Source: Hydrogenophaga sp. (GTDB lineage: Bacteria > Pseudomonadota > Gammaproteobacteria > Burkholderiales > Burkholderiaceae_C). From it: 64,000 nt of DNA. Position 1 is the stretch's first letter. Every line of letters starts with the position of its first letter. Below the pieces are notes generated by a model. That model saw only the letters and a list, made by a program, of their open reading frames with translations, was not told where the DNA came from and did not search any database. Both the position numbers and the translations under genes were made by a program. This document shows positions 845 to 29,297 of this stretch, one piece after another. The stretch covers positions 43,703 through 107,702 of the forward strand of contig NZ_JAHBZK010000019.1 of the NCBI RefSeq assembly GCF_019635465.1, written 5' to 3'.

Positions 845-1761
845 GCCTGTGGTCGGCTGTCGGTGACCCTGTCCGCCTGGAGGGTGGTCGCCGGGCTTGG
901 CTGTTGCTGGCTGTGTTCGCGCTGTCGTGGACCCTGCTCGAAGGCGTTGTGGGCGCCCAGTTCCAGCACCCGTACCACCTGCTGCAGATTGTCTGGTGCC
1001 GCTATGCGGTGCACCTGCTGGCCGTGTGGGTAATCTGGGGGCGGCGCCATCCTGCGCAACTGTGGCGCACGCAGCGACCGGTGTTCCATGTAATGCGCTC
1101 TCTGTGCATGCTGGTGATGCCGCTGGGATTCGCCATGGCGCTGTATGGCGGCATGCAAATGCACACCGTATGGGCGTTGTTCTGGATGGCGCCCTTGCTG
1201 ATCCTGGTGCTGGCCCGGCTATGGCTGCGCGAACTCGTGCCGGCGTCGGCCTGGGTGGCTGCGGTGTTGGGCAGCGCCTCGGCTGTGTTGTTGCTGGGCC
1301 TGCACTGGCCAGCCCATGCGTTCACAGTGTTGTGGCCCCTGGCCATGGCGGCGTCGTTTGCGGTCTACATGGCCATGACGCGCCAGTTGCGCTCAGAGCC
1401 TGTACAGACCAACCTGTTTCATACCGCAGCGGCCGTGTTCCTGCTGCTGACGCCGATCATGCCCTGGGTGTGGACGATGCCCACACTGCACGATGTCGCG
1501 GTGCTGATCGCGATTGGCCTGGTGGGCCTGCTGGGCCTGTGGGTGCTGGATCGTGCCTGCGAAGCCGCGCCCGTGTCCGCAACCGCCCCGGTACTCTATC
1601 TGCATCTGGCCGGTATGTTCGCCATTGAAGCCTGGGGTGGTAGCGTGGCGCTGCTGGCCCGCCAGGGCCTGTCCCTGGTACTGGTAGCGATCGTGTTGGT
1701 CATCGCATGGCGGATGTCGGCCCAAGGTGCGCCGAACCCCACCAGACTGGAAAGGCATTGA
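841..1761 (+). CDS. DMT (EamA) family transporter
   Basis: A 306-residue membrane protein, full length for the DMT family (about 10 helices, two EamA repeats). It is a paralog of the gene before it: the first helix, the central hydrophobic blocks and the WxxDxA stretch near three-quarters of the length line up. Its ATG overlaps the upstream stop (ATGA at 841-844), so translation is coupled. The stop at 1759-1761 is followed at 1766 by the GTG of the first NRPS gene. Tandem paralogous DMT proteins may work as a heteromer, as small multidrug pairs do, but this is inference. Substrate is unknown; the position at the head of a biosynthetic operon suggests export of, or immunity to, the product. 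Confidence 0.85.
   Translation: MSLWSAVGDPVRLEGGRRAWLLLAVFALSWTLLEGVVGAQFQHPYHLLQIVWCRYAVHLLAVWVIWGRRHPAQLWRTQRPVFHVMRSLCMLVMPLGFAMALYGGMQMHTVWALFWMAPLLILVLARLWLRELVPASAWVAAVLGSASAVLLLGLHWPAHAFTVLWPLAMAASFAVYMAMTRQLRSEPVQTNLFHTAAAVFLLLTPIMPWVWTMPTLHDVAVLIAIGLVGLLGLWVLDRACEAAPVSATAPVLYLHLAGMFAIEAWGGSVALLARQGLSLVLVAIVLVIAWRMSAQGAPNPTRLERH
1749..1755 (+). promoter_or_regulatory. Ribosome binding site deciding the GTG start of the first NRPS
   Basis: GGAAAGG lies 10 bases before GTG at 1766 and within the end of the upstream transporter gene. An in-frame ATG exists at 1727 but would overlap that gene by 35 bases and add residues unlike a TubC docking domain, whereas translation from 1766 begins right at the docking-domain helix. 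Confidence 0.6.
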
Positions 1762-1765
1762 GCTC

Positions 1766-4700
1766 GTGTCCGAAGAACTGACGCAATGGATCGCCGACTT
1801 GCGCGCACAGGGGGTGCAGCTGTGGGAGGAGGGTGGGCAGCTCCGTTTCCGCGCGCCCTCAGGTGCGCTGTCGGCCCAGGCCCGCGAGCGGCTGGCCGCC
1901 CACCGGGACGCCCTCATCGCCTTGCTGGCCGATCGCGGTCGCCACGAGGCCGTTGCGGCGGATGCGGGTGAACTGGTTGAGCGCCTGGCGCGACTGGATG
2001 TACGGTTGTCGGTTGAAGGCGAAAAGCTCAACGTGAGTGCACCCAAGGGCGTACTGACCCCGACGCTTCGCGACGAGCTGGGCCGGCGCAAGGAAGAGGT
2101 CGTAACCTATCTGATCGCGCAACGCCCCGCCGTGCGCGCGCCAGCGGGACCCGCGCTGGTGGTTGTGCCGCGTCACGCAGAGATGCCGGTTTCGCACACG
2201 CAGCAGCGGCTTTGGTTTCTGCGCCAGGTAGACCCATCCAGCAACGCGTACAACATCCCCGCTGTCTTGCGACTTGTCGGCCCACTTGACCAGACGGCAC
2301 TGGAGCGGGCCTTTGATCTGCTGCTGATGCGGCACGAAGGCCTGCGTACGCGGTTTGTCACGGTCAACGGTGAGCCACGTTGTGTCGTTGAGCCGCAAGT
2401 GTCGCTGCAGATTGAGCGCATCGACGTCTCGCACCTGGACGGCTCTGTCCAGGTCGCGGCGTCCGATGCAGCCATGGCGGCGATCGTGCAACGTCCGTTC
2501 GACCTGAGCCGTGCACCATTGCTGCATGTGGGGCTGATCACGGAGGCGCCTGACCGTTTCGTGCTGGCTCTGGCGCTTGATCACATCGTCTCGGATGGCC
2601 TTTCCATGGGCATCTTCATGGCCGAGTTTCAGGCCATCTACAACAGCCTCGTACAGGGGCGCGAGCCGACGCTCGCGCCCTTGCCAGTGCAGTACCTTGA
2701 CTACGCCGAGTGGGAGCGCGAAACCTTTGCGCGAGGCGCGCTGCAGTCGCATGCCGACTTCTGGAAATCCGAGCTCGAAGGGTTGCCCACGCTGCTGCAG
2801 TTGCCCACTGACCGACCGCGTCCGCCGGTTCAAACCAGTCGAGGCGACCGATGCTTGCTGCTGCTGCCGCCAGCGCTGTCGCAGCGGCTCAAGGCGTTTG
2901 CGCGCGCCGAGGGTGCCACCCTTTACATGGTGCTGATGACCGCCTTCCAGACGCTGCTACATCGCTATAGCGGCGAGACGGACTTTGCGATCGGCACCGC
3001 GATTGCCAACCGCAACCGCAGTGAAGTCGAACAGGTGATCGGCTTCTTTGCCAACAACCTCGTGATGCGCGCCGATCTGCACGGTAGCCCGTCGGTTCGT
3101 GGGCTGATGGCGCGGGTGCGTGAGCGTGCGCTCAAGGCCTACCAGCACCAGGCCATGCCTTTCGACATGCTGGTCGAGCAGCTTGGCGTCAAGCGCGAGC
3201 TCGACCATCCGCCGCTGTTTCAGGTGTTGTTTGTGCTGCAGCATCTGTCGATCTCGACGATCGAGCTCCATGGACTGCGTACGGAGGCCATCAACCCACA
3301 CGTGCGATCTTCGCGCTTCGACTTGGCGGTTGATGTTTTCGACGCGCCCGCAGGCCTGCATTGCTACTTTGAGTTCAACACCGATTTGTTCGACCGGGCA
3401 ACGATCGAGCGCATGATGGCCCACTACGAACGCCTGCTGCAGGCGCTCATGGACACGCCTGACGCGCGCATCGGCGATCTGCCGCTGCTCACGCCGGCCG
3501 AAGAATCGCAGCTGTTGGTGGGATGGAACGCCACGGACGTGGCGTATCCGCGCGAACAGACTTTGCACGGGCTGTTCGAAGCGCAGGTGGCGCGCACGCC
3601 TGAGGCGACGGCACTCTGCTTTGGCGAAGGCACGCTGAGCTATGCCGAGCTCAACGCACGCGCCAATCGGCTGGCCCATCACCTGCGCGCGCAGGGCGCT
3701 GGCCCAGGCGCGCTGGTGGGGGTGTGGATCGAACGTGGGCCGGACATGGTGGTGGCGCTGTTGGGGGTGCTCAAAGCCGGTGCCGCCTACGTGCCGCTGG
3801 ACCCGGCATTCCCGCGTGACCGGCTCGACTACATGATGGAAGACGCCGAACTGCGGTTGGTGGTCTCCCAGGCCTCGCTGGCGGTGGGGCTGCCGGCGGG
3901 GGTTCAGGGCGTCTGTCTGGACACGGACGCGGCGATGCTGGCAGGGCTCTCACCACTGGATCCGCCGGCCTCGGCACAGGCGGGCGATCTGGCCTACGTG
4001 ATCTACACCTCGGGTTCAACCGGCCGGCCCAAGGGTGTGATGCTTGAGCACCGTTCGGTGGTGAACTTTCTGTTGTCCATGCAGCGCCAGCCGGGCATCT
4101 CGGCCGGCGACCGTTTCGTGGCGGTGACCACACTGTCCTTCGATATTGCGGGGCTTGAGCTGCACGGGCCGCTGACGGTGGGGGGAACGGTGGTGCTGGC
4201 CGCGCGCGCCGACGCGCTGGACGGGGTGCAACTGGCGCGGCTGCTGCAGCGCCATGAGGCCACGTTGCTGCAAGCAACGCCCGCCACCTGGCGGCTGCTT
4301 CTCGACAGCGGCTGGACCGGTCGGCCCGGCCTCAAGATGCTGTGCGGCGGTGAAGGCCTGCCTCGCGAGCTCGCCGACAAGTTGGTCGCCACCGGGGGCC
4401 AGCTGTGGAATATGTACGGGCCGACGGAGACCACGATCTGGTCGACGTTGCAACACATTGCGTCGACTCGAGAGGGGATCTCGATCGGCCGCCCGATTGC
4501 CAATACCCAGGTCTATGTCCTGGAACCATCGGGTTTGCCGGCGCCGATCGGTGTGGGTGGTGAGTTGTGCATCGGTGGCGACGGTCTGGCGCGTGGCTAC
4601 CGCAAGCGCGAGGAACTGACGGCCGAGAAGTTCGTGACGCTGGAGCTGCCCGGGGTGGGGCCCACGCGGGTGTACCGCACCGGAGACATCGTGCGTTGGC

Positions 4701-5359
4701 GGGCCGATGGGCGCCTGGAGTTCGTGGGTCGACGCGACCACCAGGTCAAGGTGCGCGGCTTTCGCATCGAGCTGGGGGAAATCGAGACCGTGCTGTCGCG
4801 CCACGAAGGCATCAAAGGCAACGTGGTGCACGTGCGCGAGGACACGCCGGGTGACCAGCGCCTGGTGGCCTATGTCGTGCCCGAGCCCGGTGTCACCCCG
4901 CAGGCCGACGCCATGCGGGCAACACTGCGAGCCCAGTTGCCCGAGTACATGGTGCCCAACCAGTTCGTGGTGCTGCCCACATTTCCGCTCACCCCCAACG
5001 GCAAGGTCGACCGCAAGGCACTGCCTGCGCCACAAGCGCCCGAGCCGGACGTGGCCGACGACGTGGCCGAGGCATTGATGACGCCGGTGCAACGGCAGGT
5101 GGCTGCACTGTGGCGCAGCGTGCTCAAGCAGGACCGCGTTGGGCTGCACGCGAACTTCTTCGACATCGGTGGCCATTCCTTGCTGCTGGTGCGGCTGCAG
5201 GCAGCCATCAAGCGGGAGTTCGGGCAGGAAATCGCTCTGGTCGAGCTGTTTCAGCGCACCACCGTGGCGTCACAGGCCGAGCGTCTATCGGCACCGGTGG
5301 CGTCCAATGCGGCGCTTGAGCGCGCGCGCGCCCGCGCCGCCAGACAGATACAAGGTTGA
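1766..5359 (+). CDS. NRPS module: TubC docking x2 - C - A(Gly-like) - T
   Basis: Single-module nonribosomal peptide synthetase of about 1197 residues. Residues 1-55 and about 65-120 are two TubC-type N-terminal docking domains in tandem (each with an L-W/S-x-E/G-x-L...AP.G.L pattern). The condensation domain spans about 135-560, with DHIVSDG near 271 in place of HHxxxDG; the second, catalytic His is kept. The adenylation domain spans about 590-1090: TSGSTGRPKG near 750, YGPTE near 883, NGKVD near 1078. Specificity residues read by alignment with GrsA are D-I-L-Q-L-G-M-I-W-K, which matches the glycine code as I recall it. The carrier domain has GGHSL near 1136. There is no epimerase or thioesterase. 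GTG 1766 was chosen for its ribosome site and docking-domain homology. It lies 16 bases before the PKS gene. The docking domains imply it accepts a chain from another synthase, probably the megasynthase on the other strand (inference). Confidence 0.92.
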   Translation: MSEELTQWIADLRAQGVQLWEEGGQLRFRAPSGALSAQARERLAAHRDALIALLADRGRHEAVAADAGELVERLARLDVRLSVEGEKLNVSAPKGVLTPTLRDELGRRKEEVVTYLIAQRPAVRAPAGPALVVVPRHAEMPVSHTQQRLWFLRQVDPSSNAYNIPAVLRLVGPLDQTALERAFDLLLMRHEGLRTRFVTVNGEPRCVVEPQVSLQIERIDVSHLDGSVQVAASDAAMAAIVQRPFDLSRAPLLHVGLITEAPDRFVLALALDHIVSDGLSMGIFMAEFQAIYNSLVQGREPTLAPLPVQYLDYAEWERETFARGALQSHADFWKSELEGLPTLLQLPTDRPRPPVQTSRGDRCLLLLPPALSQRLKAFARAEGATLYMVLMTAFQTLLHRYSGETDFAIGTAIANRNRSEVEQVIGFFANNLVMRADLHGSPSVRGLMARVRERALKAYQHQAMPFDMLVEQLGVKRELDHPPLFQVLFVLQHLSISTIELHGLRTEAINPHVRSSRFDLAVDVFDAPAGLHCYFEFNTDLFDRATIERMMAHYERLLQALMDTPDARIGDLPLLTPAEESQLLVGWNATDVAYPREQTLHGLFEAQVARTPEATALCFGEGTLSYAELNARANRLAHHLRAQGAGPGALVGVWIERGPDMVVALLGVLKAGAAYVPLDPAFPRDRLDYMMEDAELRLVVSQASLAVGLPAGVQGVCLDTDAAMLAGLSPLDPPASAQAGDLAYVIYTSGSTGRPKGVMLEHRSVVNFLLSMQRQPGISAGDRFVAVTTLSFDIAGLELHGPLTVGGTVVLAARADALDGVQLARLLQRHEATLLQATPATWRLLLDSGWTGRPGLKMLCGGEGLPRELADKLVATGGQLWNMYGPTETTIWSTLQHIASTREGISIGRPIANTQVYVLEPSGLPAPIGVGGELCIGGDGLARGYRKREELTAEKFVTLELPGVGPTRVYRTGDIVRWRADGRLEFVGRRDHQVKVRGFRIELGEIETVLSRHEGIKGNVVHVREDTPGDQRLVAYVVPEPGVTPQADAMRATLRAQLPEYMVPNQFVVLPTFPLTPNGKVDRKALPAPQAPEPDVADDVAEALMTPVQRQVAALWRSVLKQDRVGLHANFFDIGGHSLLLVRLQAAIKREFGQEIALVELFQRTTVASQAERLSAPVASNAALERARARAARQIQG

Positions 5360-5375: not shown

Positions 5376-8300
5376 ATGGATTCCAAGGACACGTTTCCCC
5401 CGCACGCCATCGCCATTGTTGGCATGGCGGGCCGCTTTCCCGATGCACAGGACCTCGACGGGTTCTGGCGCAACATCCGCGAAGGTGTCGAGTCGCTGGA
5501 GACGTTCAGCGACGAGGACCTGCGCGAGGCCGGGGTCGATCCGGCTCTGAGTGCCCAGCCACACTATGTGCGGCGTGGCACCGTGCTGCAGGATGCCGAG
5601 CACTTCGATGCGGCGTTCTTCGGGATGTCGCCGCGCGAGGCGCAGGTGATCGATCCGCAGCAGCGCATCTTCCTGGAGTGCGCCTGGGAGGCGCTCGAGC
5701 ATGCGGGCTATGCGCCAGGCGCTATCGATGCGCCGGTCGGCGTGTATGCGGGCGCGAGCATGAACTCCTATTTGCTTGCACAGATTCTTCGCAACCCCAA
5801 GGTCGCTGCGACGGTGGGGGGCTACCAGCTGATGCTGGGCAACGACAAGGACTTTCTCTGCACCCGGGTGTCCTACAAGCTGGACCTGCACGGACCGAGC
5901 ATGACGCTGCAGACCGCTTGTTCCACCTCGTTGGTGGCGGTGCAGGTGGCTTGCCGCGCACTGGAGCGCCACGAGTGCGACATCGCCCTGGCGGGTGGCG
6001 TGTCGGTGAGTTATCCGCAGCGTGGCGGCTACCTGTACCAGGAAGGCATGATCCTGTCGCCCGATGGGCACTGCCGCCCCTTCGACGCTGACGCCAAGGG
6101 CACTCGCCCCGGCGCTGGCGCCGGCATCGTGGTGCTCAAGCGCCTGGCCGATGCGCTGGCCGACGGTGACACGGTGCACGCCGTCATTCGAGGTGCGGCC
6201 ATCAACAACGATGGATCGGGCAAGGCCGGGTACACCGCCCCCAGCGTCGATGGCCAGGTCGAGGTCATTGCCACCGCGCAGATCCTGGCCGGTGTGCAGC
6301 CGCACAGCATTGGCTACATCGAGGCGCACGGCACGGCCACACCTTTGGGCGACCCGATCGAGATCGCGGCCTTGAAGCAGGTGTTCGCGTCGGATACCGA
6401 TGCAGCTGGACATTGCCGCCTGGGATCGCTCAAGGCCAACCTGGGGCACCTGGATGCGGCAGCCGGCGTGGCCGGCCTCATCAAGACCGTGCTGGTGCTC
6501 AAACACCGCGAGTTGCCGCCGCTCGTGAATTTCCAGCGCGCAAACCCGCAATTGGACCTGGCCAACTCGCCCTTCACCGCCAGTGCCGAGGTCGCGCCAT
6601 GGCCTGCTGGCGAGACACCGCGTCGCGCAGGGGTCAGCTCGTTCGGCATTGGCGGCACCAATGCGCACGTCGTGCTCGAAGAGGCACCAGAGCCTGCCGC
6701 ACGGGATCGCCACGCAGCGCCGCATCTGGTAGTGCTGTCGGCGCGCAGCGAGGCCGCGCTCGCCTCGGCGTCGCAGCGACTGGCTGCGCACCTGCACAAG
6801 CACCCGGGTGAAGCACTGGCTGACGTCGCCTGGACGCTGCAAGTCGGGCGGCGCGCGTTTGCCCACCGGCGCGCAGTCGTGGCTGGCTCGACCGCCGAGC
6901 TGGCGCAGGCCCTGGAAGCCGGGTCGCGCCCCCCGGTCCACAGCAGCCTCCACGAAGGTGGCGAACGCCCGGTCGCCTTCCTTTTCAGTGGGCAGGGCAG
7001 CCAGTTCGCTGGCATGGGTGCCGGCTTGTACGAGACGTATCCGGTCTATCGCGACGCCGTCGATCGCTGCGCCGTGCAGTTGCAGGCCACGCTGGGGCGG
7101 GATCTGCGCGATCTGCTGTTTGCGACCCAGGGCGACACCACCATCAACGAAACGCGCTACGCGCAGCCGGCCCTGTTCGTCACCGAATACGCGCTGGCCA
7201 TGCTGTGGCAAAGCTGGGGCGTTCGCCCCGCGGCCATGCTCGGTCACAGCATCGGCGAGTACGTGGCCGCGCACCTCGCAGGGGTCATGACGCTGGCCGA
7301 CGCGCTGACGCTGGTGGCCGCACGCGGGAGACTCATGCAGTCCATGGCGCCGGGTGCCATGGCGGCGGTACACATGGACAAGGCCGAGCTCAAGGCCTGG
7401 CTGGGTGCGCATGCCCCGAACCTCGAAATCGCGGCCGTGAACGCGCCCGGCCTGTGTGCCATCGCGGGCCCGCGCCAGGTCATGGACGCAGCGCTAGTCG
7501 CTCTGGCCGCACAGGGGGTCGAGGCCCAGCTGCTGCACACCTCGCACGCCTTTCACTCGTCCATGATGGACGCCGTGCTGACCCCGTTCACCGACCTGGT
7601 GGCACAACGGGTGCTGAGTGCGCCTGTCGTGCCCTATGTGTCCAACGTCACCGGCCAATGGATCACGGCAGAGCAGGCGACCTCGCCAGCGTACTACGCC
7701 GAACACCTGCGCAGCGCCGTGCTGTTCGAAGCCGGCGTGCGCACGCTGGGGGCCGACGCGTCGCTGCATTTGCTGGAGGTGGGTCCGGGGCGCTCGCTCA
7801 GCACCCTGGCGGGTCTGTCCCTGGGTCCCAAAGGTGTTCGCCGTGTGGTGGCCTCGCTGGGGGGCGCGCGCGAGCCCCAGCAGGAAGCACGTGCGCTGCT
7901 GGAGGCCGCCGGGCGACTGTGGCTGGCCGGTGCCGCCCTGGACGCGTCGGGGATGCATGCGGGTCATCACCCGCGCCGCATTCCCTTGCCAACCTACGCC
8001 TTCGAGCGGCAGCGCCATGTGATCGAGGCGGCGCCTGGTGATTCGTCGGTGGGCGTCGAGACACCCGCTTCGCCTTCGACCAGCAGGGCCTCCCGCGATT
8101 CCGCCGAGGTGACCTATCGCGCCGACGTCGGCGATTGGCTCTACGCGCCGACCTGGGTGCGTGCGCCCGACAACCGCGCCCCCGGGCTCAAGGACACCTG
8201 GCTCATTGCCGGCGGCGAAGATGCGCTGGCCACAGCCTTGGCCCAAGGCCTGCAGGCCATGGGCGCCGACGTGGTGCGCGCGAGCACGGTGCAGGAGGCA

Positions 8301-9926
8301 GCCAGCGCTGTCAGCGAAGCGCGGGCCAATGCCCAGCGGATCGAGGGGGCGTTCTCGCTGTGGGGCTTGCGCGCTGACGCAGGGCGCGACGCGCTGTACC
8401 ACCTGCCGGTGGCACTGGCCAATGCGCTGGCACCCCGTTCGTCAGAGCCGGTGCGGCTGGTGGTGGCAACCATGGGCGCGCACAGCGTGTTGGGTGAGCC
8501 GGTTCGTTGCAGCGAGGCGGCCTTGGCCATGGGGCCGGTGCTGGCGATGCCGCTGGAGTTGCCCGGCCTTCGCATGCGCCAGCTGGATCTCCCGGTGGAG
8601 GAGGTCGACAAGCAGCCGATGCTCGTGCAGGCCTTGATCGATGAGGCAACCACGCGCGACCACGAAGACGTCGTGGCACGTCGCATGGGCCAGCGCTGGC
8701 TGCGACGGATGGAGTCCTGTCCGCTGCCCAGGGTTTCGCCTGACCAGCCGTTGTTGAGCACGGGCGCCGTCGTGGTGATGACCGGCGGACTGGGTGGTAT
8801 GGGGCTGGCCATTGCGCAGCGACTTGCGCAGCGACACCAGGCGCGATTGCTGTTAACCGCGCGCACCGCACTGCCAGCCCGCGCCGAATGGGCGGCGTGG
8901 CGGGCTTCGCACGACGCAGGCGATCGCACCGCGCAGGTGATCGCCGCGCTGCAGTCCATCGAAGCGGCTGGCGGCGAAGTGGAGGTGGCCTGCGCCGATG
9001 CGGCGGACGCCTCGGCGATGGCCGAGGCCATTGAAACCGCCCGACGACGCTGGGGGCGTATCGACGCGCTGATACACGCGGCCGGTGTGGCGGGCGAGGG
9101 GACTCTGGCAACCCTGAAATCGACCCAGGCGGTCGACGCCGTGCTGGCCCCCAAGGTGGATGGCCTGGGCGTGTTACGCGATTTGCTGGCCAATGACGCG
9201 CTGGAGTGCGTCGTGCTCATGGGGTCCATCAACGCCGTGCTGGGTGCACCCGGGGTGAGCGACTACGCCTCGGCCAACGCGGTGCTGGATGCCTTTGCCG
9301 AGTCGAATGAGGTGCCGCCGAACTGGCGCCGTGTGCTTGCCTTTGACTGGGGTGCCTGGCGTGAGGTCGGCATGGCGGCCAGGCTGGAGGTGCCTGCCTG
9401 GCGTCGGGCAGCCTGGGATGCCTACCTGGCCAAAGGCATTGGCACCGAGCAGGGGTTGGACGCATTCGAGCGGGTGATGGCCAGCGCGCTTCGCCGTGCG
9501 GTCGTGGTGCCCTACGACCTGCCTGCGGCCTTGGCGCTGACGCGTGCGGCCGTGTTGAACCCCGCACACGCTCAGCCCGACCCTGCGCAACCACAGGATG
9601 CCGCCACCGCGACATCTGATCGTGCGGCCGCGGGCAAGCCCGTCGCGCCGGTGCGAACCGATGATGTGCAGGGGCAGGTGGCTGCCATCTGGATGGAGTT
9701 GCTCGGTCTGGAGCAGGTGGTTCCCGAAGACGATTTCTTCCAGCTGGGCGGTCATTCGCTGCTGGCCACCCGGGTGCTGGCGAGGGTGCGCGATTCCATG
9801 GGGGTTCAGCTCGCGCTGCGTGACATGTTCGATGCTTCGACATTGCAAGCGTTCGCAGCACGGGTGCAGGCAGGCCTGAGTGGGACAGAATCGGCCGATG
9901 ATGACCGGGAGGAGATCGAGTTTTGA
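5376..9926 (+). CDS. Type I PKS module: KS-AT(malonyl)-KR-ACP
   Basis: A 1516-residue modular polyketide synthase. KS about 10-430 with the active-site Cys in TACSTS near 182 and the two His in EAHGTA and NLGHL. AT about 530-830 with GHSIGEY near 623 and HAFH near 724; HAFH is the malonyl-CoA signature. A W-x-Y-x-P-x-W linker then a KR, with NADPH loop TGGLGGMG near 1136 and the S...Y...N set (DYASAN near 1297). The LDD motif of B-type and the Trp of A-type ketoreductases are both absent, so hydroxyl stereochemistry cannot be called. ACP has GGHSL near 1459. There are no DH, ER or TE domains, so the expected product unit is a beta-hydroxy acyl extension. The C-terminus is acidic (DDDREEIEF), fitting the short linear motif that TubC/beta-hairpin docking domains bind; the next gene starts with such a domain. 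Confidence 0.93.
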   Translation: MDSKDTFPPHAIAIVGMAGRFPDAQDLDGFWRNIREGVESLETFSDEDLREAGVDPALSAQPHYVRRGTVLQDAEHFDAAFFGMSPREAQVIDPQQRIFLECAWEALEHAGYAPGAIDAPVGVYAGASMNSYLLAQILRNPKVAATVGGYQLMLGNDKDFLCTRVSYKLDLHGPSMTLQTACSTSLVAVQVACRALERHECDIALAGGVSVSYPQRGGYLYQEGMILSPDGHCRPFDADAKGTRPGAGAGIVVLKRLADALADGDTVHAVIRGAAINNDGSGKAGYTAPSVDGQVEVIATAQILAGVQPHSIGYIEAHGTATPLGDPIEIAALKQVFASDTDAAGHCRLGSLKANLGHLDAAAGVAGLIKTVLVLKHRELPPLVNFQRANPQLDLANSPFTASAEVAPWPAGETPRRAGVSSFGIGGTNAHVVLEEAPEPAARDRHAAPHLVVLSARSEAALASASQRLAAHLHKHPGEALADVAWTLQVGRRAFAHRRAVVAGSTAELAQALEAGSRPPVHSSLHEGGERPVAFLFSGQGSQFAGMGAGLYETYPVYRDAVDRCAVQLQATLGRDLRDLLFATQGDTTINETRYAQPALFVTEYALAMLWQSWGVRPAAMLGHSIGEYVAAHLAGVMTLADALTLVAARGRLMQSMAPGAMAAVHMDKAELKAWLGAHAPNLEIAAVNAPGLCAIAGPRQVMDAALVALAAQGVEAQLLHTSHAFHSSMMDAVLTPFTDLVAQRVLSAPVVPYVSNVTGQWITAEQATSPAYYAEHLRSAVLFEAGVRTLGADASLHLLEVGPGRSLSTLAGLSLGPKGVRRVVASLGGAREPQQEARALLEAAGRLWLAGAALDASGMHAGHHPRRIPLPTYAFERQRHVIEAAPGDSSVGVETPASPSTSRASRDSAEVTYRADVGDWLYAPTWVRAPDNRAPGLKDTWLIAGGEDALATALAQGLQAMGADVVRASTVQEAASAVSEARANAQRIEGAFSLWGLRADAGRDALYHLPVALANALAPRSSEPVRLVVATMGAHSVLGEPVRCSEAALAMGPVLAMPLELPGLRMRQLDLPVEEVDKQPMLVQALIDEATTRDHEDVVARRMGQRWLRRMESCPLPRVSPDQPLLSTGAVVVMTGGLGGMGLAIAQRLAQRHQARLLLTARTALPARAEWAAWRASHDAGDRTAQVIAALQSIEAAGGEVEVACADAADASAMAEAIETARRRWGRIDALIHAAGVAGEGTLATLKSTQAVDAVLAPKVDGLGVLRDLLANDALECVVLMGSINAVLGAPGVSDYASANAVLDAFAESNEVPPNWRRVLAFDWGAWREVGMAARLEVPAWRRAAWDAYLAKGIGTEQGLDAFERVMASALRRAVVVPYDLPAALALTRAAVLNPAHAQPDPAQPQDAATATSDRAAAGKPVAPVRTDDVQGQVAAIWMELLGLEQVVPEDDFFQLGGHSLLATRVLARVRDSMGVQLALRDMFDASTLQAFAARVQAGLSGTESADDDREEIEF
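9907..9914 (+). promoter_or_regulatory. Ribosome binding site for the TTG start of the second NRPS
   Basis: GGGAGGAG sits 8 bases before TTG at 9923. The TTG overlaps the PKS stop (TTGA), and the peptide from this codon starts immediately with a TubC-like helix, so TTG is preferred to any later ATG. Confidence 0.6.
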
Positions 9927-12900
9927 ACGCGCATGAGCTGCTGCACCGGCTGCAAGAGCTCGGTGTGGAACTGGCGGTGTCCGAAGGCCGGCTGCGCGCA
10001 AGCGCCAGCCGCGGTCGGCTCGACGACGAGCTCAAGGCGGCCATCGCGGCCAACAAGCTCGAGCTGATCGCTCTGCTCGATGCGCGACATGGGGCAATTG
10101 AGTCGTCGACGCTGCCTCGGGTGAATCGCGAGGGCCTGTTGCCCTTGTCCATGTTTCAGGAGCGCCTGTGGATCCTGCAGCGGCTCGATCCACAAAGCAC
10201 CACCTACCTGTTGGCGCTTGCCTGGCCGGTATCGGGCGAGGTTCCCCGTGATCGCCTGGTGAGCGCGGTCCGGCGCGTGCATGCCCGCCACCTTGGCCTG
10301 CGGGTGCACTTTGTGCAGGAAGGTGACGCGCTGGGCGCCCGGGTGGTCGACGTGCCCGAGGTGCTGGTGCGTGACATGCGCGAGATTGCGCCTGAGGCGC
10401 GCCGGGATGCGGTGCAGTCGGCCATCGACGCCGCCGTGCACACCCCGATCGATCTGGCTGCGCAGACACCCTTGCGCTTCGAGGTGCTGGACTTCGGCCC
10501 TGATGGGCAGGTGCTGCTCGCCGTGGCACACCACATTGCGGTGGATGCCTGGTCACTGAACATCCTGCTGCGCGAACTGGGTGAAGAGCTTGTGCAGCCG
10601 CAACCGGAGCTGTCAGCTGCCGATGGCTTGCAGTACGCCGATTTCGCGGCCTGGCAGCGCACGCACCAGCAACCGCAGACGCTGGCCAGCGAGCTCGACT
10701 GGTGGAGCCAGGCACTGCAGGGCGCGCCCCAGACCTCCATGTTTGTGCCCGACCTGGTTGATACCGACGTGCCGGCCCGAGGTGCAACCGTCGACTTCAC
10801 GCTGGACGCGGAACTCACTCGCGGCCTCAAGCAATGGGTGCAGCCTCGTCACGTCACGGTCTACATGGCATTTCTGGCCGCGATCGCCACGCTGCTTCGC
10901 GTTCACACCGGCCAGCAAGACGTCTTGCTCGGTAGCCCGATGGGGGTTCGCGAGCGGCCGGAATTCGAGTCGCTGATCGGGCCATTTGTGAACCTGTTGG
11001 TGCTTCGCCTGCAGATGCAGGACGACCCCTCGTTTGCCGATCTGGTGCAACGGGCGCGTGGGGCCTTGCTTGACGCCCACGAACACCGCGCGACGCCCTT
11101 CGAGAGCGTGGTCGAGCGTGTGCGACCAACACGTTCATTCCAGCATTCGCCGCTGTTTCAGGTGGCGGTGGTGTATCACCAGGCGGGCGCGCAGAGCGAC
11201 GTGGTGGTTCACAGTGGGGGTGCGCTCAACGAGATAACCTGGTTCGCTCGTGAAGTCGATGCCTGCATTGTCTGCAGCCTGGAATACCGCAGCGACCTCT
11301 ACAGCGCGGCGAGCATGCAACGCCTGGCGGCCCAGTTGCAAGCCCTGCTGACTGCGGTGGTGGCACAGGGCGATGCGCCGCTGAGCCAGCTGCCCTGCAT
11401 GGATGCCGCCGCGCAGCGACAGGTGTTGATCGAGTTCAATGACACCGATCAGACGCTGGATGACAGGCCCTTCGTTCGCCAATTCGAGCAACAGGCGGCC
11501 AGGGCGCCGGAGCGAATCGCCGCTGCATTCGAAGGCGCGACGCTGAGCTACGAGGCACTCAACCGGCGCGCCAACCAGTGGGCGCGACAGTTGCGCGCTC
11601 TGGGCGTGACTTCCGGCGTGCGCGTGGGTGTGTGCGTCGAGCGCTCGCTGGACATGCTGGTGGCGCTGATCGCAGTTCAAAAGGCCGGCGGCGCCTATGT
11701 GCCGCTTGACCCGGGCTTCCCGGCTGATCGGTTGGCTTACATGCTCGAAGACAGTGGCGCACCGGTGCTCATCAGTACCGGCGAGGCTCTGGACATGGTG
11801 GATCCGCCGCCAGGGGTTCAGCTGTTCGATCCTGCACAACAGGCCACTGCGCTTGCTGGTCTGGATGCGCGCGACCTGGACGTTCACCTGAACCCCGGCG
11901 AGGCGGTGTATGTGATCTACACCTCGGGCTCCACCGGTCGGCCCAAGGGCGTGGCGATCTCCCATGGGGCATTGAGCAACTTCCTCGGCAGCATGCGGCA
12001 GGCGCCCGGCCTGTCGAGCGACGACGTGGTGGCGGCGGTCACCACGATCTCTTTTGACATTGCCGGGCTGGAGCTCTACCTGCCGTTGCTGGTGGGTGCT
12101 CGCGTGGAGCTCGTCTCGCGCGAGGTCGCCACCGACGGGCAGGCGCTGGAGGCACAACTGCGTGCGGCCGGTGCCACCGTGCTGCAGGCCACGCCTGCGA
12201 CGTGGCGCCTGTTGCTGGAGTCGGGCTGGCGGGGCGACCGCACGGTGCGCGCCTTCTGCGGTGGCGAGGCCCTGCCCAGAGAGCTGGCCGATGCCTTGCT
12301 CGAGCGTGTGGGCGAGCTGTGGAACCTGTACGGACCGACCGAAACGACCATCTGGTCGACCATCGAATGTGTGCCACGCGCCAGCTCGCCAGTGAGCATC
12401 GGCAGGCCGATCGCCAACACCCGCGTTTACGTGCTGGACGCTCACCGTCGTCCCTTGCCGATTGGCGTTGCGGGGGAGCTTTGGATCGGTGGGCAGGGTG
12501 TCGCGATGGGTTACCACCAGCGTCCTGAGCTCACGGCCGAGCGTTTTGCCCCCGACCCCTTTGCACCGAGCGCGTCTGGCGGCGTCGAGCCACGGATGTA
12601 TCGCACCGGCGACCTGGCCCGTTGGGATGCGGACGGGCGCCTGTACCACCTGGGGCGGTTGGATCACCAGGTCAAGATCCGCGGCTTTCGCATCGAGCTG
12701 GGCGAAATCGAGGCGCGATTGGCCACCCATCCGTCGGTGCAGCAAACCGTGGTGATGGGCAGAGAGGCAGCGCCTGGGGATCTGAGGCTGGTGGCGTATG
12801 TCGTCCCTGCACCCGGCGCCGACCTGACCGCCAGCGATGTGCGTCGCCACCTGCGTCGTGACTTGCCCGACTACATGATTCCAGCGGTGGTGGCTTCGGT

Positions 12901-13237
12901 TGACGCCATACCACTGACCCCCAATGGCAAGGTGGACCGCGCGGCCTTGCCCGATCCGTTCCGCAACGCCGTGCAGGCCTCACGTCACTATGTGGCACCC
13001 GCATCCGGAGCGGAAGAGACCATGGCGGCGATCTGGTGCGACATTCTGCGCGTGGAGCGTGTGAGCGCCGAAGACAACTTCTTCGAACTCGGAGGGCACT
13101 CCTTGCTGTCGCTGAGGGTGGTGCTGGCGGTCGAGCAGCGTCTGGGCTGGCGCATGGACGCGCGCACCTTGTTTTTCCAGAACCTGCGCCAGGTGGTGGC
13201 CTCCGCTGCAGCGGGCAAAGGAGTCGTCAAGGCATGA
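9923..13237 (+). CDS. NRPS module: TubC docking - C - A(Gly-like) - T
   Basis: About 1104 residues, starting at TTG in a 4-base overlap with the PKS gene. Residues 1-55 form one TubC-like docking domain. Condensation domain about 70-500 carries HHIAVDA near 202, with the final Gly of HHxxxDG replaced by Ala. Adenylation domain about 515-1010: TSGSTGRPKG near 668, YGPTE near 803, NGKVD near 1000. Specificity residues read D-I-L-Q-F-G-L-I-W-K, close to the glycine code but with Phe at the 299 position, so Gly is less certain here than in the first module. Carrier domain GGHSL near 1058. No thioesterase follows; instead the ATG of an alpha/beta hydrolase overlaps the stop. The acidic tail of the preceding PKS and this N-terminal docking domain form a plausible cognate pair. 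Confidence 0.92.
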   Translation: MNAHELLHRLQELGVELAVSEGRLRASASRGRLDDELKAAIAANKLELIALLDARHGAIESSTLPRVNREGLLPLSMFQERLWILQRLDPQSTTYLLALAWPVSGEVPRDRLVSAVRRVHARHLGLRVHFVQEGDALGARVVDVPEVLVRDMREIAPEARRDAVQSAIDAAVHTPIDLAAQTPLRFEVLDFGPDGQVLLAVAHHIAVDAWSLNILLRELGEELVQPQPELSAADGLQYADFAAWQRTHQQPQTLASELDWWSQALQGAPQTSMFVPDLVDTDVPARGATVDFTLDAELTRGLKQWVQPRHVTVYMAFLAAIATLLRVHTGQQDVLLGSPMGVRERPEFESLIGPFVNLLVLRLQMQDDPSFADLVQRARGALLDAHEHRATPFESVVERVRPTRSFQHSPLFQVAVVYHQAGAQSDVVVHSGGALNEITWFAREVDACIVCSLEYRSDLYSAASMQRLAAQLQALLTAVVAQGDAPLSQLPCMDAAAQRQVLIEFNDTDQTLDDRPFVRQFEQQAARAPERIAAAFEGATLSYEALNRRANQWARQLRALGVTSGVRVGVCVERSLDMLVALIAVQKAGGAYVPLDPGFPADRLAYMLEDSGAPVLISTGEALDMVDPPPGVQLFDPAQQATALAGLDARDLDVHLNPGEAVYVIYTSGSTGRPKGVAISHGALSNFLGSMRQAPGLSSDDVVAAVTTISFDIAGLELYLPLLVGARVELVSREVATDGQALEAQLRAAGATVLQATPATWRLLLESGWRGDRTVRAFCGGEALPRELADALLERVGELWNLYGPTETTIWSTIECVPRASSPVSIGRPIANTRVYVLDAHRRPLPIGVAGELWIGGQGVAMGYHQRPELTAERFAPDPFAPSASGGVEPRMYRTGDLARWDADGRLYHLGRLDHQVKIRGFRIELGEIEARLATHPSVQQTVVMGREAAPGDLRLVAYVVPAPGADLTASDVRRHLRRDLPDYMIPAVVASVDAIPLTPNGKVDRAALPDPFRNAVQASRHYVAPASGAEETMAAIWCDILRVERVSAEDNFFELGGHSLLSLRVVLAVEQRLGWRMDARTLFFQNLRQVVASAAAGKGVVKA

Positions 13238-14004
13238 CGCCGCTGTATTTTGGTGACCGCTCGCGGCGCCTCTTCGGGCTGTATACCCCGGCGCATGCCA
13301 GTGGCACGCGTGCGCGCGGTGCTGTGATTTGCGCGCCCTGGGGCGTCGAGCACTTGCGCGCGCACCGCAGCATGGCGCAGTTGGGCAAGTGGCTTGGCGA
13401 GGCCGGCGTGCATGTCTTGCGCTTTGACTACCACGGCACCGGGGACTCGGCGGGCGACATGGGCGATGCGCGACTGGACGGATGGCGCGACGACGTGATG
13501 ACCGCTGTCGAAGAGCTCAAGGACACCGCAGGTGTGCAGCGCGTGACGCTCGTGGGTCTGCGGCTCGGGGCGGTGCTCGCCGCGCAGGCGGCGGCCGCGC
13601 GACGCCGCGACATCGATGGCCTGGTGCTCTGGGACCCGGTCGTTCATGGCGCTACCTATCTGCGCGAATTGCAAGCGCTGCACGCCCAGACCTTGCATGC
13701 CCGTGCGTTGTCTGGCCAGGAGGGCGAGTTGCTGGGGTTCCCGGTCAGCGAAGGGCTGCTGCAGGACATGGCTGGCATGGACCTGCTTGAGCAGGTGGCG
13801 AAGTGGCCGAGCCGCATGCTGGTCTTGAGCAGCGGTCCGATGGAGGAGGGCCCGGCGCTTACCGAGGCGCTTCGCTCGGCCGGTCGCGAAGACGCGGTGG
13901 AATGCCTGGACGTGCAGGCCGCCTGGTTGGAGGACCGGCATTCGGGTGCCGGGGCGGTGCCGGTGAAGTTGCTCCGGCGAGTCGTCGATTGGACGATCGC
14001 ATGA
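13234..14004 (+). CDS. Alpha/beta hydrolase, exosortase-hydrolase-2-like, Ser replaced by Arg
   Basis: A 256-residue alpha/beta-fold protein that starts at ATG 13234 in an ATGA overlap with the NRPS stop. It has the strand-turn RFDYHGTGDS near 63-72 typical of serine aminopeptidase/lysophospholipase-like hydrolases. The nucleophile elbow reads GLRLG at 108-112, so the canonical Ser of GxSxG is Arg. From memory, the same GLRLGA elbow is usual in hydrolase 2 of the exosortase-A exopolysaccharide locus. It is closely related to the minus-strand gene at 15779-16582 (shared FDYHGTGDS, LVLW-(D/E)-P-V, GA-x-YL). It is followed by a GxCxG hydrolase in another 4-base overlap. A role in chain release or editing is inferred from position and from the lack of a thioesterase domain. 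Confidence 0.8.
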   Translation: MTPLYFGDRSRRLFGLYTPAHASGTRARGAVICAPWGVEHLRAHRSMAQLGKWLGEAGVHVLRFDYHGTGDSAGDMGDARLDGWRDDVMTAVEELKDTAGVQRVTLVGLRLGAVLAAQAAAARRRDIDGLVLWDPVVHGATYLRELQALHAQTLHARALSGQEGELLGFPVSEGLLQDMAGMDLLEQVAKWPSRMLVLSSGPMEEGPALTEALRSAGREDAVECLDVQAAWLEDRHSGAGAVPVKLLRRVVDWTIA

Positions 14005-14876
14005 ATGCCGTGGCCGAACAGACGCTGTTATTGGGGCCCGCCAATGGCCTGGTGGGCGTCATCACCCCTGCGCAGCCGCCGGCCGACGGTATTGGCGTAC
14101 CCGATGACAAACCCTTCGTGGTCATCCTCAACGCCGGCATCATTCATCGTGTGGGTCCCAATCGCCTGCACGTGTCCCTGGCGCGTGCGCTGTCCGCCGA
14201 TGGCTTTCCGGTGTTGCGGGTGGACCTGTCGGGGTTGGGGGACAGCGCGGCTCGCGAGGACGGCGCGGCCCCGCTCGAAGCCGCCATGGCCGACATCAAG
14301 GACGTCATCGACACCTTGCAGGCCACACGCAAGGTGCAGCGCGTGGTGTTGATGGGGCTGTGTTCGGGGGCCGACCATTCGGTCATCTACGCAGCCTCAG
14401 ACCCCAGAGTGGTGGGCGTAGCCTTGCTCGATCCATCGATCCCGCGCACGACCGGTTACTACCTCAAGCACTATGCGGGCCGATTTTTCCGCGCGCGCAC
14501 CTGGATGAATGTGGCCTCAGGGCGGCATCCCCTGTGGAAGGTCGTTACCCGGCGTCAATCGGTCGCCAGCGCAGACATGGCCGATGCACGCCCTGCGGTC
14601 ACCCTGGAGCATCCCGAGGTTCGGGCATTCCTTGAAAAGGCCTATGGCGGCGCGCTGGCCAACGACACACAGATGCTGGCCGTGCTGACGTCCGATCGCG
14701 AGCGTCAACACAACTACCGGCGTCAACTGCTCGATGCCTTTCCCGCGCTGAATTTCAAGGGGCGCCTGTTGATCGAATACTTTGATCACTGCGATCACAC
14801 CTTCACGACGCTGGCGAACCAGCAGCGCCTGGTGGCCCTGGTGCGGCGGTGGATGCAGGGCACCCGGTTTCGTTGA
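14001..14876 (+). CDS. Alpha/beta hydrolase with Cys nucleophile elbow (GLCSG)
   Basis: A 291-residue alpha/beta hydrolase whose ATG overlaps the previous stop. The oxyanion/turn region is RVDLSGLGDS (73-82). The nucleophile elbow is GLCSG at 119-123, putting Cys121 where Ser is expected, as in PHA synthases and in exosortase-associated hydrolase 1 (GLCD, recalled from the family). A His in the DHTF stretch near the C-terminus is the likely catalytic base, so an active Cys-His-Asp triad is possible. The paralog on the opposite strand (14919-15776) has the same elbow. It is the last gene of the plus operon. Expected location is cytoplasmic: no signal peptide or membrane segment is visible. Function may be thioesterase-like release or transfer of the chain (inference). 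Confidence 0.8.
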   Translation: MNAVAEQTLLLGPANGLVGVITPAQPPADGIGVPDDKPFVVILNAGIIHRVGPNRLHVSLARALSADGFPVLRVDLSGLGDSAAREDGAAPLEAAMADIKDVIDTLQATRKVQRVVLMGLCSGADHSVIYAASDPRVVGVALLDPSIPRTTGYYLKHYAGRFFRARTWMNVASGRHPLWKVVTRRQSVASADMADARPAVTLEHPEVRAFLEKAYGGALANDTQMLAVLTSDRERQHNYRRQLLDAFPALNFKGRLLIEYFDHCDHTFTTLANQQRLVALVRRWMQGTRFR

Positions 14877-14918
14877 CGGTGCTCGCACCCCTGGCGGGGG
14901 AGGCCGTGGCGGGTGTTG
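14877..14918. other. Gap between the two convergent operons
   Basis: Forty-two bases separate the stops of the two convergent hydrolase genes. A loose CACCC...GGGTG inverted repeat is present but there is no T-run on either strand, so no canonical intrinsic terminator can be claimed. Confidence 0.5.
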
Positions 14919-15776
14919 TCAGCCTTTGCGGTTGGCTGGCAACACGCGATGTTCGACCCAGCGCGTGGTCATGTCGATGAACGCCTGCTTGGCGGGGCCG
15001 CTGGTGATCAGGTGATCGGTGGTTTCGAGCAACTCGAACGCAACACGCGGCAACCAGGGTTGGCCGCGAAACATCGCCGCAAACTGTCCGCGGTGGTTGA
15101 ACCACTCCGGCTGGCCACCGCAGTAGGCAAACAGCAGCTCGACCCCCTGTGCAGTGAGTGTGTCAACACGCGCCATGAACTCATCCTTGGGCGGCGACAC
15201 CGACATTTCGCCCTTGGGCTTTTCGGGCGTGTCGTCAGGCGGCACCAGACGCAGTGCGCGCAGTGCCATCACCGCGGCCTTGCGCGTGGAACCGGCCAAT
15301 CCCGCGCGCCCGATCTTGAAGGCGAGTTTGCGCAGGCGCGATTGCAGCGTGGGGTAGGCATACATGTCCCACAGCAGAACCGCTCGCATGCGCGGGTCCT
15401 CCAGGGCGACCAGGTGACCAATGATGGCGCCCGAACACAGGCCCACCATGAAAAAGCGGTCACACCCGAACTGTGCCTGTGCAGCGTTCATGACATCGCG
15501 GGTATCCGCAACCCATTGCTCGGTAACAGAGCGCGTGTGGTTGCTGCGTTGGCTGTCGCCCAGCCCGCTCATGTCGAAGCGCACCGAAGCGATTCCCATG
15601 TCGGCGAGCGCGCGGGCCAGCAGGACGTTGATGCGATGGGGACCGCTGCGGGGAATCACACCGGAGTTGCTCAGCAGAGCGACCACCGGTACAGGGTTGC
15701 CGGGGATGGTGGCTGCTGGGGTGAAAGTGGCCACCAGATGGCCTTCCGACCCCACGATGCGGGTTTGCTCCTGCAT
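14919..15776 (-). CDS. Alpha/beta hydrolase with Cys nucleophile elbow (GLCSG)
   Basis: A 285-residue alpha/beta hydrolase, the last gene of the minus-strand operon. The start at ATG 15776 lies 2 bases after the stop of the preceding hydrolase. RFDMSGLGDS spans 66-75 and the elbow is GLCSG at 112-116 with Cys114 in the nucleophile place. It is a clear paralog of the plus-strand gene at 14001-14876: both share the NSG/NAG-(V/I)-I-x-R-x-GP-x-R stretch, LARAL, SGLGDS and GLCSGA. A late TTDH motif offers a catalytic His. No signal peptide. The conserved pairing of one GLCSG hydrolase behind one Ser-less hydrolase on both strands suggests the two proteins work together (inference). Confidence 0.8.
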   Translation of the reverse strand: MQEQTRIVGSEGHLVATFTPAATIPGNPVPVVALLSNSGVIPRSGPHRINVLLARALADMGIASVRFDMSGLGDSQRSNHTRSVTEQWVADTRDVMNAAQAQFGCDRFFMVGLCSGAIIGHLVALEDPRMRAVLLWDMYAYPTLQSRLRKLAFKIGRAGLAGSTRKAAVMALRALRLVPPDDTPEKPKGEMSVSPPKDEFMARVDTLTAQGVELLFAYCGGQPEWFNHRGQFAAMFRGQPWLPRVAFELLETTDHLITSGPAKQAFIDMTTRWVEHRVLPANRKG

Positions 15777-15778
15777 GG

Positions 15779-16582
15779 TCAGTTCAAAGAAGACAAGAGC
15801 ACCCTGGGAATGTCGGGTGGCGCGATGGCGGTTCCCATGGCCTGACTGGACATCCAGTCGGTGGGGTGTTCGACGGTGTGCAGACGAAGGGCGGCCAGTC
15901 CTGTGTGGGCGGCGAGCGGGTTGGGCCGATCGCCTCGCGTGGCACAGGTGACCTGAAGCCCGCGCCGCAGGGCGGGGAGCACGTTGAAATCGGGCAGGGC
16001 TCGCAACTCGTCCACCAATCGGGCACCGAAGGTGAAACCCAGGACGTCGCCGGGCAAGGTGGGCTCGGCCACTTTCGCTTGGCGTACCAGCTGGTCCCAA
16101 GGTTGGGCAAACATCATGGCCAGCTCGGTTCGATGGCCTTCCAGCAAGGCATCAAGGTACTGGGCGCCATTGAGCACCGGCTCCCAGAGCACCAGGTGCC
16201 TCGGCGGTCGCCTGGCCAGCAAAGCCGCACGCAAGGCGATGACCGCGCCCAGCCCCATGCCGAACCAATGCACCGGCACGTCGTCGGTGGCCACCAGTTC
16301 GTGTGCGATCAATGTGTCGTGTACCCAGTCGTCGAGTGACTGGTCTGCCTCGTCACCGAGCGAATCGCCGGTGCCGTGGTAGTCAAAGCGCAGCGATTCG
16401 ATGCCTTCGCGCGACAGCCGCTCGCCAGCGACCCGGAAGACGGCCGCACTGCGCACTGCCTCCTGCCCCAGTGGGCGACAAAGCAGGAACCTGGCGCGCG
16501 GGGGCGTTGCTCCCTCGGCGAGCGCGTGAACACCCACCATCGGCCGGTTCCATGGGCCGAAATGTCGGATGGAAATGGTCAT
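15779..16582 (-). CDS. Alpha/beta hydrolase, Ser replaced by Gly (GMGLG)
   Basis: A 267-residue alpha/beta-fold protein starting 37 bases after the megasynthase stop. RFDYHGTGDS is at 65-74. The nucleophile elbow reads GMGLG at 108-112, with Gly110 where Ser should be, so classic serine-hydrolase chemistry is not expected. It is the counterpart of the plus-strand gene at 13234-14004, and like it comes directly after the synthase gene and directly before a GLCSG hydrolase. Possible roles are a scaffold or regulatory partner of the Cys hydrolase, or carrier-protein binding; none is shown by the sequence alone. Confidence 0.78.
   Translation of the reverse strand: MTISIRHFGPWNRPMVGVHALAEGATPPRARFLLCRPLGQEAVRSAAVFRVAGERLSREGIESLRFDYHGTGDSLGDEADQSLDDWVHDTLIAHELVATDDVPVHWFGMGLGAVIALRAALLARRPPRHLVLWEPVLNGAQYLDALLEGHRTELAMMFAQPWDQLVRQAKVAEPTLPGDVLGFTFGARLVDELRALPDFNVLPALRRGLQVTCATRGDRPNPLAAHTGLAALRLHTVEHPTDWMSSQAMGTAIAPPDIPRVLLSSLN

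Positions 16583-16619: not shown

Positions 16620-29297
<12,678 letters not shown>

Follow-up and report, generated by a model that had tools for sequence, protein, structure and literature searches.

Paired alpha/beta-hydrolases, one with a cysteine elbow and one without a nucleophile, at the ends of two Hydrogenophaga assembly lines: a candidate two-part carrier-protein enzyme

Two hydrolase pairs at the ends of convergent operons

The DNA analysed here ('the window'), 64,000 nucleotides from Hydrogenophaga sp., covers positions 43703-107702 of contig C11 (NZ_JAHBZK010000019.1) in a draft genome that is 88% complete. It carries two convergent operons of nonribosomal peptide synthetase (NRPS) and polyketide synthase (PKS) genes, and each operon ends in two alpha/beta-hydrolase genes, which are the subject of this report: first a hydrolase with Arg or Gly at the nucleophile elbow (hydr2-like), then one with Cys (hydr1-like). 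On the plus strand these are A1 (13234-14004, 256 aa, elbow GLRLG) and A2 (14001-14876, 291 aa, GLCSG), and on the minus strand B1 (16582-15779, 267 aa, GMGLG) and B2 (15776-14919, 285 aa, GLCSG). The original prediction, made from the sequence alone, had described two inverted hydrolase pairs whose four elbows all have a residue other than Ser at the nucleophile position; translation and alignment confirm the genes, their order and the elbow residues, and the four-gene span is 13234-16582, exactly as first given.

The genes are tightly packed. The start of A1 overlaps the stop codon of the NRPS gene at 9923-13237, A1 and A2 overlap by 4 nt, and B1 and B2 are separated by 2 nt. The minus-strand operon consists of a single 4225-aa NRPS/PKS protein followed by B1 and B2, so that an NRPS lies directly upstream of B1. 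A gap of 42 nt (14877-14918) separates the operons; a terminator between them was considered and rejected, no terminator-like site being found in 14700-15100.

Family, elbow residues and fold

The best matches of A1 and B1 are to TIGR03101 (hydr2_PEP), at 114.8 and 76.3 bits against a cut-off of 202.75, and those of A2 and B2 are to TIGR03100 (hydr1_PEP), at 97.4 and 48.9 bits against a cut-off of 168.45. As a positive control, the pair at locus L049 reaches 274.3 and 278.3 bits with the same two models. The suggested likeness to exosortase-associated hydrolases 2 and 1 therefore stands for best match and gene order, each window protein finding the right partner model, and does not extend to family membership, since all four score far below the cut-offs. 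PF12146 (S33-type hydrolase, threshold 27 bits) is passed by all four proteins (52.3 bits for A1, then 36.4, 34.3 and 32.8). Among Pfam matches at E up to 1, PF00975 appears for none of A1, A2, B1 and B2, and for PF01738 (dienelactone hydrolase, a Cys hydrolase family, threshold 21 bits) only A2 is listed, below threshold at 18.7 bits.

None of the four has Ser at the nucleophile position, which is occupied by Arg110 in A1 (codon 13561-13563, plus strand), Cys121 in A2 (14361-14363, plus), Gly110 in B1 (16253-16255, minus) and Cys114 in B2 (15435-15437, minus). When phmmer aligns A2 and A1 to S33-type hydrolases in the PDB, A2 Cys121 and A1 Arg110 fall where those relatives have their elbow Ser, so that these elbows are not alignment slips. 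The other candidate catalytic residues are Asp144 (14430-14432) and His266 (14796-14798) in A2, and Asp137 (15366-15368) and His255 (15012-15014) in B2. The match of A2 His266 to the His of DHTFS in solved relatives depends on a second, weak segment (-0.5 bits); the invariance of this His in the 124 rows described below is better evidence. AlphaFold2 predicts an alpha/beta-hydrolase fold for both A2 (pLDDT 85.2, pTM 0.83) and A1 (pLDDT 87.4, pTM 0.89), and in the A2 model Cys121 is placed after strand 5, Asp144 after strand 6 and His266 after the last strand. The hits of structure searches, whose scores were tied, were esterases and lipases along with a few thioesterases.

Pairing, fusion and conservation across genomes

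The pairing of hydr2 and hydr1 is near-obligate. In all, 161 pairs were read, six being repeats (at L090, L117, L119, L120, L125 and L128): a first set of 124 pairs (118 different) from 119 fetched loci and the window, with hydr2 first and on the same strand, and a second set of 37 pairs from 36 further loci (27 phylum-sample loci and nine family loci). Stretches of at most 40 bits in the first set and at most 45 bits in the second were dropped. An NRPS-linked query found 176 relatives, of which the best 80 supply the named loci among the 119; this biases upward the share found beside NRPS genes; the broader samples are 200 genomes of the same family and 398 of the phylum. In the family sample, 71 genomes match A2 (E 1e-8) and 69 match the hydr2 profile (E 1e-18). 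Hydr1 was found in 30 genomes of the phylum sample (E 1e-25), four of them already read, and the 27 loci from the other 26 all hold the pair, 17 of them as one reading frame. With both genes recurring in one order at 161 places, chance is excluded.

Fusion into one frame accounts for 10 of the 124 pairs in the first set, each time with hydr2 first, as in the operons. The hydr1 tree splits these fusions, with eight in one group and two (L061 and L071) within the exosortase-type (Xrt) group, where each single protein passes both TIGR cut-offs. The expectation that homologs occur as pairs is thus borne out, with one clear exception (L088, below) and with fusion in at least two lineages. Locus L085 carries two hydr2-hydr1 pairs in tandem (5902-10987), and on the single contig of L157 (2-16608) about 3 kb lie between a fused pair with a carrier protein and a second, two-gene pair that converges with an NRPS/AMT line.

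The elbow residues are conserved in opposite ways in the two partners. In the first set, hydr1 has the Cys in 124/124 rows, the His in 124/124 and the Asp before the His in 122/124, whereas hydr2 has at the nucleophile place Arg in 109 rows and Gly in 15, and never Ser or Cys. The second set agrees, with the hydr1 Cys in 36 of 38 stretches (the others being one fragment and one Gly) and hydr2 showing Arg in 27, Gly in 10 and Ser or Cys in none of 37. Overall, the Cys is kept in 160/162 hydr1 stretches, and hydr2 has 136 Arg and 25 Gly among 161, again never Ser or Cys. The Gly occurs in two unlike groups, that of B1 (15 rows) and the fused proteins. No His is found among the 22 hydr2 positions conserved at 85% or more. 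Only hydr1 keeps both a nucleophile and a conserved His, which is consistent with the earlier suggestion that the Cys partner alone would be catalytic.

Two further hydr1 positions separate the groups. Residue 144, placed right after strand 6 in the model, is Asp or Glu in 94/94 rows of the clade that holds the window pairs (the NRPS clade) and Asn in 20/20 Xrt and 10/10 fused rows of the first set. The elbow Cys is followed by Ser in 92/94 NRPS-clade rows and by Asp in 20/20 rows of the Xrt group, which is defined by this residue (D/E) and whose rows also cluster on the tree. The Ser of GLCSG was rejected as a nucleophile; it follows the Cys and is replaced by Asp in those 20 rows.

The distances of the hydr1 and hydr2 trees correlate at r 0.93 over 124 pairs (Mantel test; best of 1000 permutations 0.10), a test that leaves shared descent in; as a control, over the same 71 loci hydr1-hydr2 gives 0.92, C domain-hydr1 0.62 and C domain-hydr2 0.55. 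The pair therefore travels as a unit more closely than it does with its assembly line. A recent duplication, which the description of a duplicated pair had implied, was rejected: A1 and B1 are 28% identical and A2 and B2 27-28%, and on trees that are quick and carry one support value A1 and B1, like A2 and B2, fall in different groups, A2 and B2 in separate deep clades, each pair with its own relatives. Judged by their sequences, the A and B pairs are old paralogues. The closest named relatives of both are in Hydrogenophaga, and the same convergent double arrangement is present in H. intermedia, H. borbori and a Hydrogenophaga metagenome-assembled genome.

Three carrier-protein contexts

The original prediction had pointed out that exosortase-associated hydrolases sit near carrier and ligase genes, and would have failed had homologs never been found as pairs or beside carrier-protein systems. 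This did not hold: the homologs are paired, and they recur in three contexts, as separate genes with NRPS/PKS lines, in loci of the exosortase-A type, and as fused genes next to amino-acid:carrier-protein ligases.

The NRPS clade comprises 94 pairs, 78 of which have an NRPS, PKS or AMT gene in the fetched stretch and 72 of which have one upstream on the same strand. Taking as the line of a pair the nearest NRPS gene upstream on its strand, 68 of the 72 lines (repeat loci included) lie within 1 kb of the pair and the farthest at 5.5 kb, often with a PPTase gene between. Among the controls, only 1/20 Xrt pairs and 1/10 fused pairs have any NRPS, PKS or AMT gene. Line-associated pairs are found in Variovorax, Hydrogenophaga, Aquabacterium, Thiomonas, Corallococcus and others.

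Exosortase A hydrolases 2 and 1 correspond to the window pairs in both families and in gene order. At L049 the pair and an AMP-forming ligase exceed the cut-offs of TIGR03101, TIGR03100 and TIGR03098 (274, 278 and 713 bits). The elbows of these hydrolases, Arg in hydr2 and Cys in hydr1, are those of the A pair, the B pair having Gly for Arg; the differences lie in the ligase neighbour as against an NRPS/PKS context, and in hydr1, where the exosortase type has a Cys-Asp elbow and Asn144 and the window type a Cys-Ser elbow and Asp/Glu144. Membership of the Xrt group is set by the residue after the Cys and not by the presence of exosortase genes; of its rows, L049 and the fused L061 and L071 were the ones run against the TIGR models. 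The window genome has no TIGR03101 match over the cut-off; the exosortase gene itself was not searched for.

The third context is a conserved locus with a fused hydr2-hydr1 gene, a carrier protein, and DUF1839, GH2-like and acyl-CoA-dehydrogenase-like genes; most copies also have an amino-acid:carrier-protein ligase, and a PPTase is frequent (L052, L055, L058, L165, L173, L189 and others). DUF1839 has been termed papain-like and guessed to be glycan-processing (PMC10318531). Where the ligase is PRK07080 (NF005479) and the carrier protein PRK07081, the fused gene has the same domains in the same order as a window pair, with Cys in hydr1 and Arg or Gly in hydr2; it differs in being a single polypeptide, in its Asn144 (10/10 of the first set), in having no assembly line and in forming a separate clade. 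In the family sample, 12 of the 14 genomes with this ligase have a fused pair and the ligase in the fetched stretch.

Ends of the assembly lines

In all 72 lines, 3-69 residues separate the last PCP stretch from the end of the protein, as against the 226 positions of PF00975, so that there is no room for a terminal thioesterase. In the window the tails are 9 aa for the NRPS at 9923-13237 and 35 aa for the 4225-aa protein, neither with such a domain, and none was found in Pfam scans of five of the 72 line ends and the window's two. The cluster had been called thioesterase-free; this holds for the line ends read, and fails for the operon as a whole, which is headed by a stand-alone thioesterase on the plus strand (C11:5625-6446, about 37 kb before the window start; 273 aa, PF00975 150.8 bits). 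In the whole genomes of six named relatives, PF00975 matches do not exceed 31 bits in three (G587, G589 and G592; two Variovorax and one Xenophilus), one other Variovorax genome has a 109-bit match on a contig whose number differs from that of its large NRPS genes, and two Hydrogenophaga genomes have a stand-alone PF00975 thioesterase on the contig of the pair.

The last modules differ in their adenylation (A) domain, which is absent in 32 lines (C-PCP), degenerate in 14, meaning that motif patterns were not found, and intact in 26 (C-A-PCP). Both window lines are among the 72. By Pfam and domain order the 4225-aa protein (16620-29297, minus strand) reads A-PCP-KS-AT-PCP-AMT-C-A-PCP-C-(degenerate A)-PCP, Pfam finding four PCP and two A stretches; in the degenerate domain (residues 3713-4126, 16920-18161), within a 415-aa gap between the last C and the last PCP, motifs A3, A5, A7 and A10 were not found. 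The 14 degenerate-A lines belong to the NRPS group with the Gly elbow, covering 14 of its 15 rows; the fifteenth (L102) has no line in its stretch.

The plus-strand line ends with an intact C-A-PCP. By Pfam, the gene at 9923-13237 encodes TubC dock-C-A-PCP, preceded by a PKS gene with KS-AT-KR-PCP (5376-9926) and a further TubC dock-C-A-PCP gene (1727-5359); an EamA transporter gene (11-844) lies within the operon, and the gene that overlaps it (841-1761) has no Pfam (E 0.001) or NCBIfam (E 1e-5) match. The operon starts upstream of the window, where a run of PKS genes lies on the same strand. Elsewhere in the window, two LysR-type regulator genes stand in tandem on the plus strand (38382-39353 and 39350-40351, 4-nt overlap).

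A proposed two-subunit cysteine enzyme for the terminal carrier

It is somewhat probable, in our judgement, that A1 with A2, and B1 with B2, each form a two-subunit Cys acyltransferase or thioesterase that acts on the terminal carrier of its own line and does the job of the missing terminal thioesterase. Hydr1 (A2 or B2), as a Cys-His-Asp alpha/beta-hydrolase, would attack the thioester on the last carrier domain and hold the chain as an acyl-S-Cys intermediate before passing it to an acceptor, most likely the chain's own amine or hydroxyl (cyclisation), a separate amine or sugar, or water. Hydr2 (A1 or B1), with the same fold and neither a nucleophile nor a conserved His, would be a pseudo-enzyme in a physical complex with hydr1, and its role is probably to dock the carrier protein, or else to complete or cap the active site. 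Unloading of the terminal carrier is favoured over loading, although sequence does not decide between release, cyclisation, editing and transfer.

Precedent for a Cys enzyme that acts on the last carrier comes from the Cys thioesterase domains of ObiF, SulM and AB3403 (PMC6668435, PMC11298585), which are alpha/beta-hydrolases with a Cys nucleophile that take the chain from the last carrier. In ObiF and SulM a Cys-to-Ser change shifts the outcome to hydrolysis, so that the Cys goes with ring closure (PMC6668435, PMC11298585). AB3403 has a conserved acid after strand 6, as do most solved NRPS thioesterases (PMC11298585) and the window hydr1 proteins. It is on this precedent and on the acid that the pair is read as a two-part enzyme acting in trans. 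These domains differ from the window pairs in being single and in cis, the passages on them naming no second hydrolase-like subunit (PMC6668435, PMC11298585), whereas the window has two proteins and no PF00975 match. The hydr1 and hydr2 families are named, without a function, in the literature searched, and the fold and Cys chemistry are already known.

Several observations weigh against this proposal. An acid after strand 6 does not prove catalysis, since hydr2 too has one at the equivalent position in 94/94 NRPS-clade rows. The last A domain is missing or degenerate in 46/72 lines, where the step needed may be to load the last carrier and not to unload it. Two hydr1 genes of the first set have no hydr2, L088 with no partner within its 3.1 kb of upstream sequence and L112 at a contig start; L093 has one lone weak hydr2 stretch (40 bits), L195 has hydr1 in two pieces, and in L189 a second hydr1 ends before the His. 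In the fused gene of L196 (genome G139, 9173-11182) Gly replaces the hydr1 Cys and there is no His in the aligned stretch; this is possibly a decayed or repurposed copy. No NRPS or PKS gene is present in the fetched stretch of 16/94 NRPS-clade pairs (seven stretches below 13 kb and nine of 19-21 kb), and in six more such a gene lies only elsewhere than upstream on the same strand. The weak PF00975 matches of the relatives (26-31 bits), which we read as other alpha/beta-hydrolases, exceed Pfam's own cut-off. As to the ligases, two of the 14 family genomes are exceptions, G104 (76% complete) with no hydr1 or hydr2 match and G053, whose Xrt-type fusion lies about 21 kb away; of the 27 phylum-sample genomes with a ligase over the cut-off, 11 have no hydr1 match, and the only hydr1 found in G528 is part of an NRPS-type pair, so that the ligase also occurs without the fused pair.

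Other readings of the pair

Because last A domains are missing in so many lines, loading of the last carrier stays a real rival, though a distinctly less likely one. SyrC and CmaE are Cys alpha/beta-hydrolases that act in trans as aminoacyl shuttles between carriers, and SyrC serves a last module without an A domain; we know of no need for a pseudo-enzyme partner in either. A pair of this type would charge the last carrier with an amino acid or with a finished chain from a different carrier, the last C domain would then join the two pieces, and release would fall to the C domain or to something else. The 32 lines ending C-PCP and the 14 ending C-(degenerate A)-PCP, including the minus-strand line of the window, fit such a shuttle, as does the AMT, which should give the chain a free amine and accompanies 42 of these 46 lines as against 15 of the 26 with an intact last A domain (counts that treat related loci as independent). 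So does the fact that fused pairs are often neighbours of amino-acid:carrier-protein ligases, since the aminoacyl-carrier made by these has to be passed on; to our knowledge no next enzyme is known for these ligases. On the other side, the 26 lines with an intact terminal C-A-PCP, among them the plus-strand line of the window, keep the pair nonetheless, and no stand-alone A-domain gene was seen in the gene lists of the lines without an A domain, where no systematic search beyond the fetched stretches was made. An acyl-Cys step would be common to the shuttle and the release enzyme, the acceptor being what sets them apart.

Transfer of carrier-bound acyl or peptidyl groups to exopolysaccharide or another surface glycan is unlikely as the pair's function. 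Exosortase systems are exopolysaccharide-associated by the title of PMC1569441, in the text of which hydrolase, acyl carrier and ligase do not occur, and Bcam1334, with a TIGR03100 prediction, sits in a biofilm exopolysaccharide cluster (PMC3584217). In Variovorax paradoxus VAI-C (CP063167.1, 6015-37595) NRPS, PPTase, hydr2 and hydr1 genes head a polysaccharide gene set, the pair being directly followed by polysaccharide export, tyrosine autokinase, sugar transferase and glycosyltransferase genes, with sugar-nucleotide genes in the set; this layout suggests a peptide or lipid part on a polysaccharide. GT2 and Wzy_C genes adjoin the pair in Thiomonas-type loci. As a general rule, however, the link was rejected: an exopolysaccharide core marker is present in only 15/88 NRPS-clade, 3/20 Xrt and 0/10 fused loci of the first set and in 4/24 later loci (23 fused and one two-gene), the low Xrt count showing that the marker set misses much, and the window has a single weak sugar-transferase match, 45 kb from the pairs.

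Editing, the clearing of wrongly loaded carriers by a type II-like thioesterase, was part of the original prediction of a two-part release, cyclisation or editing enzyme, in which the unit and its carrier link are well supported and the chemistry stays conjectural. Stand-alone alpha/beta-hydrolases beside assembly lines do often edit, as does the type II thioesterase RifR (PMC11298585, PMC6668435). Editing is nevertheless improbable here because the plus-strand operon owns a stand-alone PF00975 thioesterase, as do the contigs of the pair in the two other Hydrogenophaga genomes, and each line would still be without a release enzyme. That the four proteins are ordinary hydrolases acting after release (in resistance, maturation or turnover) and paired by an accident of inheritance accords with the fold and with nearest solved structures that are general S33 esterases and lipases, but is very hard to reconcile with near-obligate pairing, fusion, one partner always without a nucleophile, and a carrier link across unlike systems.

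A broader and distinctly less likely reading than the release enzyme proposed above is that hydr2/hydr1 is a general two-part carrier-protein Cys acyltransferase with an obligate pseudo-enzyme, common to NRPS/PKS, ligase and exosortase-A systems. In lines without a working last A domain it would park the finished chain on the last carrier for the C domain to couple to a second chain. The two convergent lines of the window could even have their products joined in this way.

Implications

For lines that end without a release domain, annotation has no release step. If the proposed release enzyme is real, one uncharacterised pair, filed as exosortase-associated, would account for how lines of Variovorax, Hydrogenophaga, Aquabacterium, Thiomonas, Corallococcus and others unload their products. 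Exosortase-A hydrolases 1 and 2 would gain a testable chemistry, and the amino-acid:carrier-protein ligases would be tied to the same step. Dependence on a dead copy of itself would also be a new way for a thioesterase to be built.

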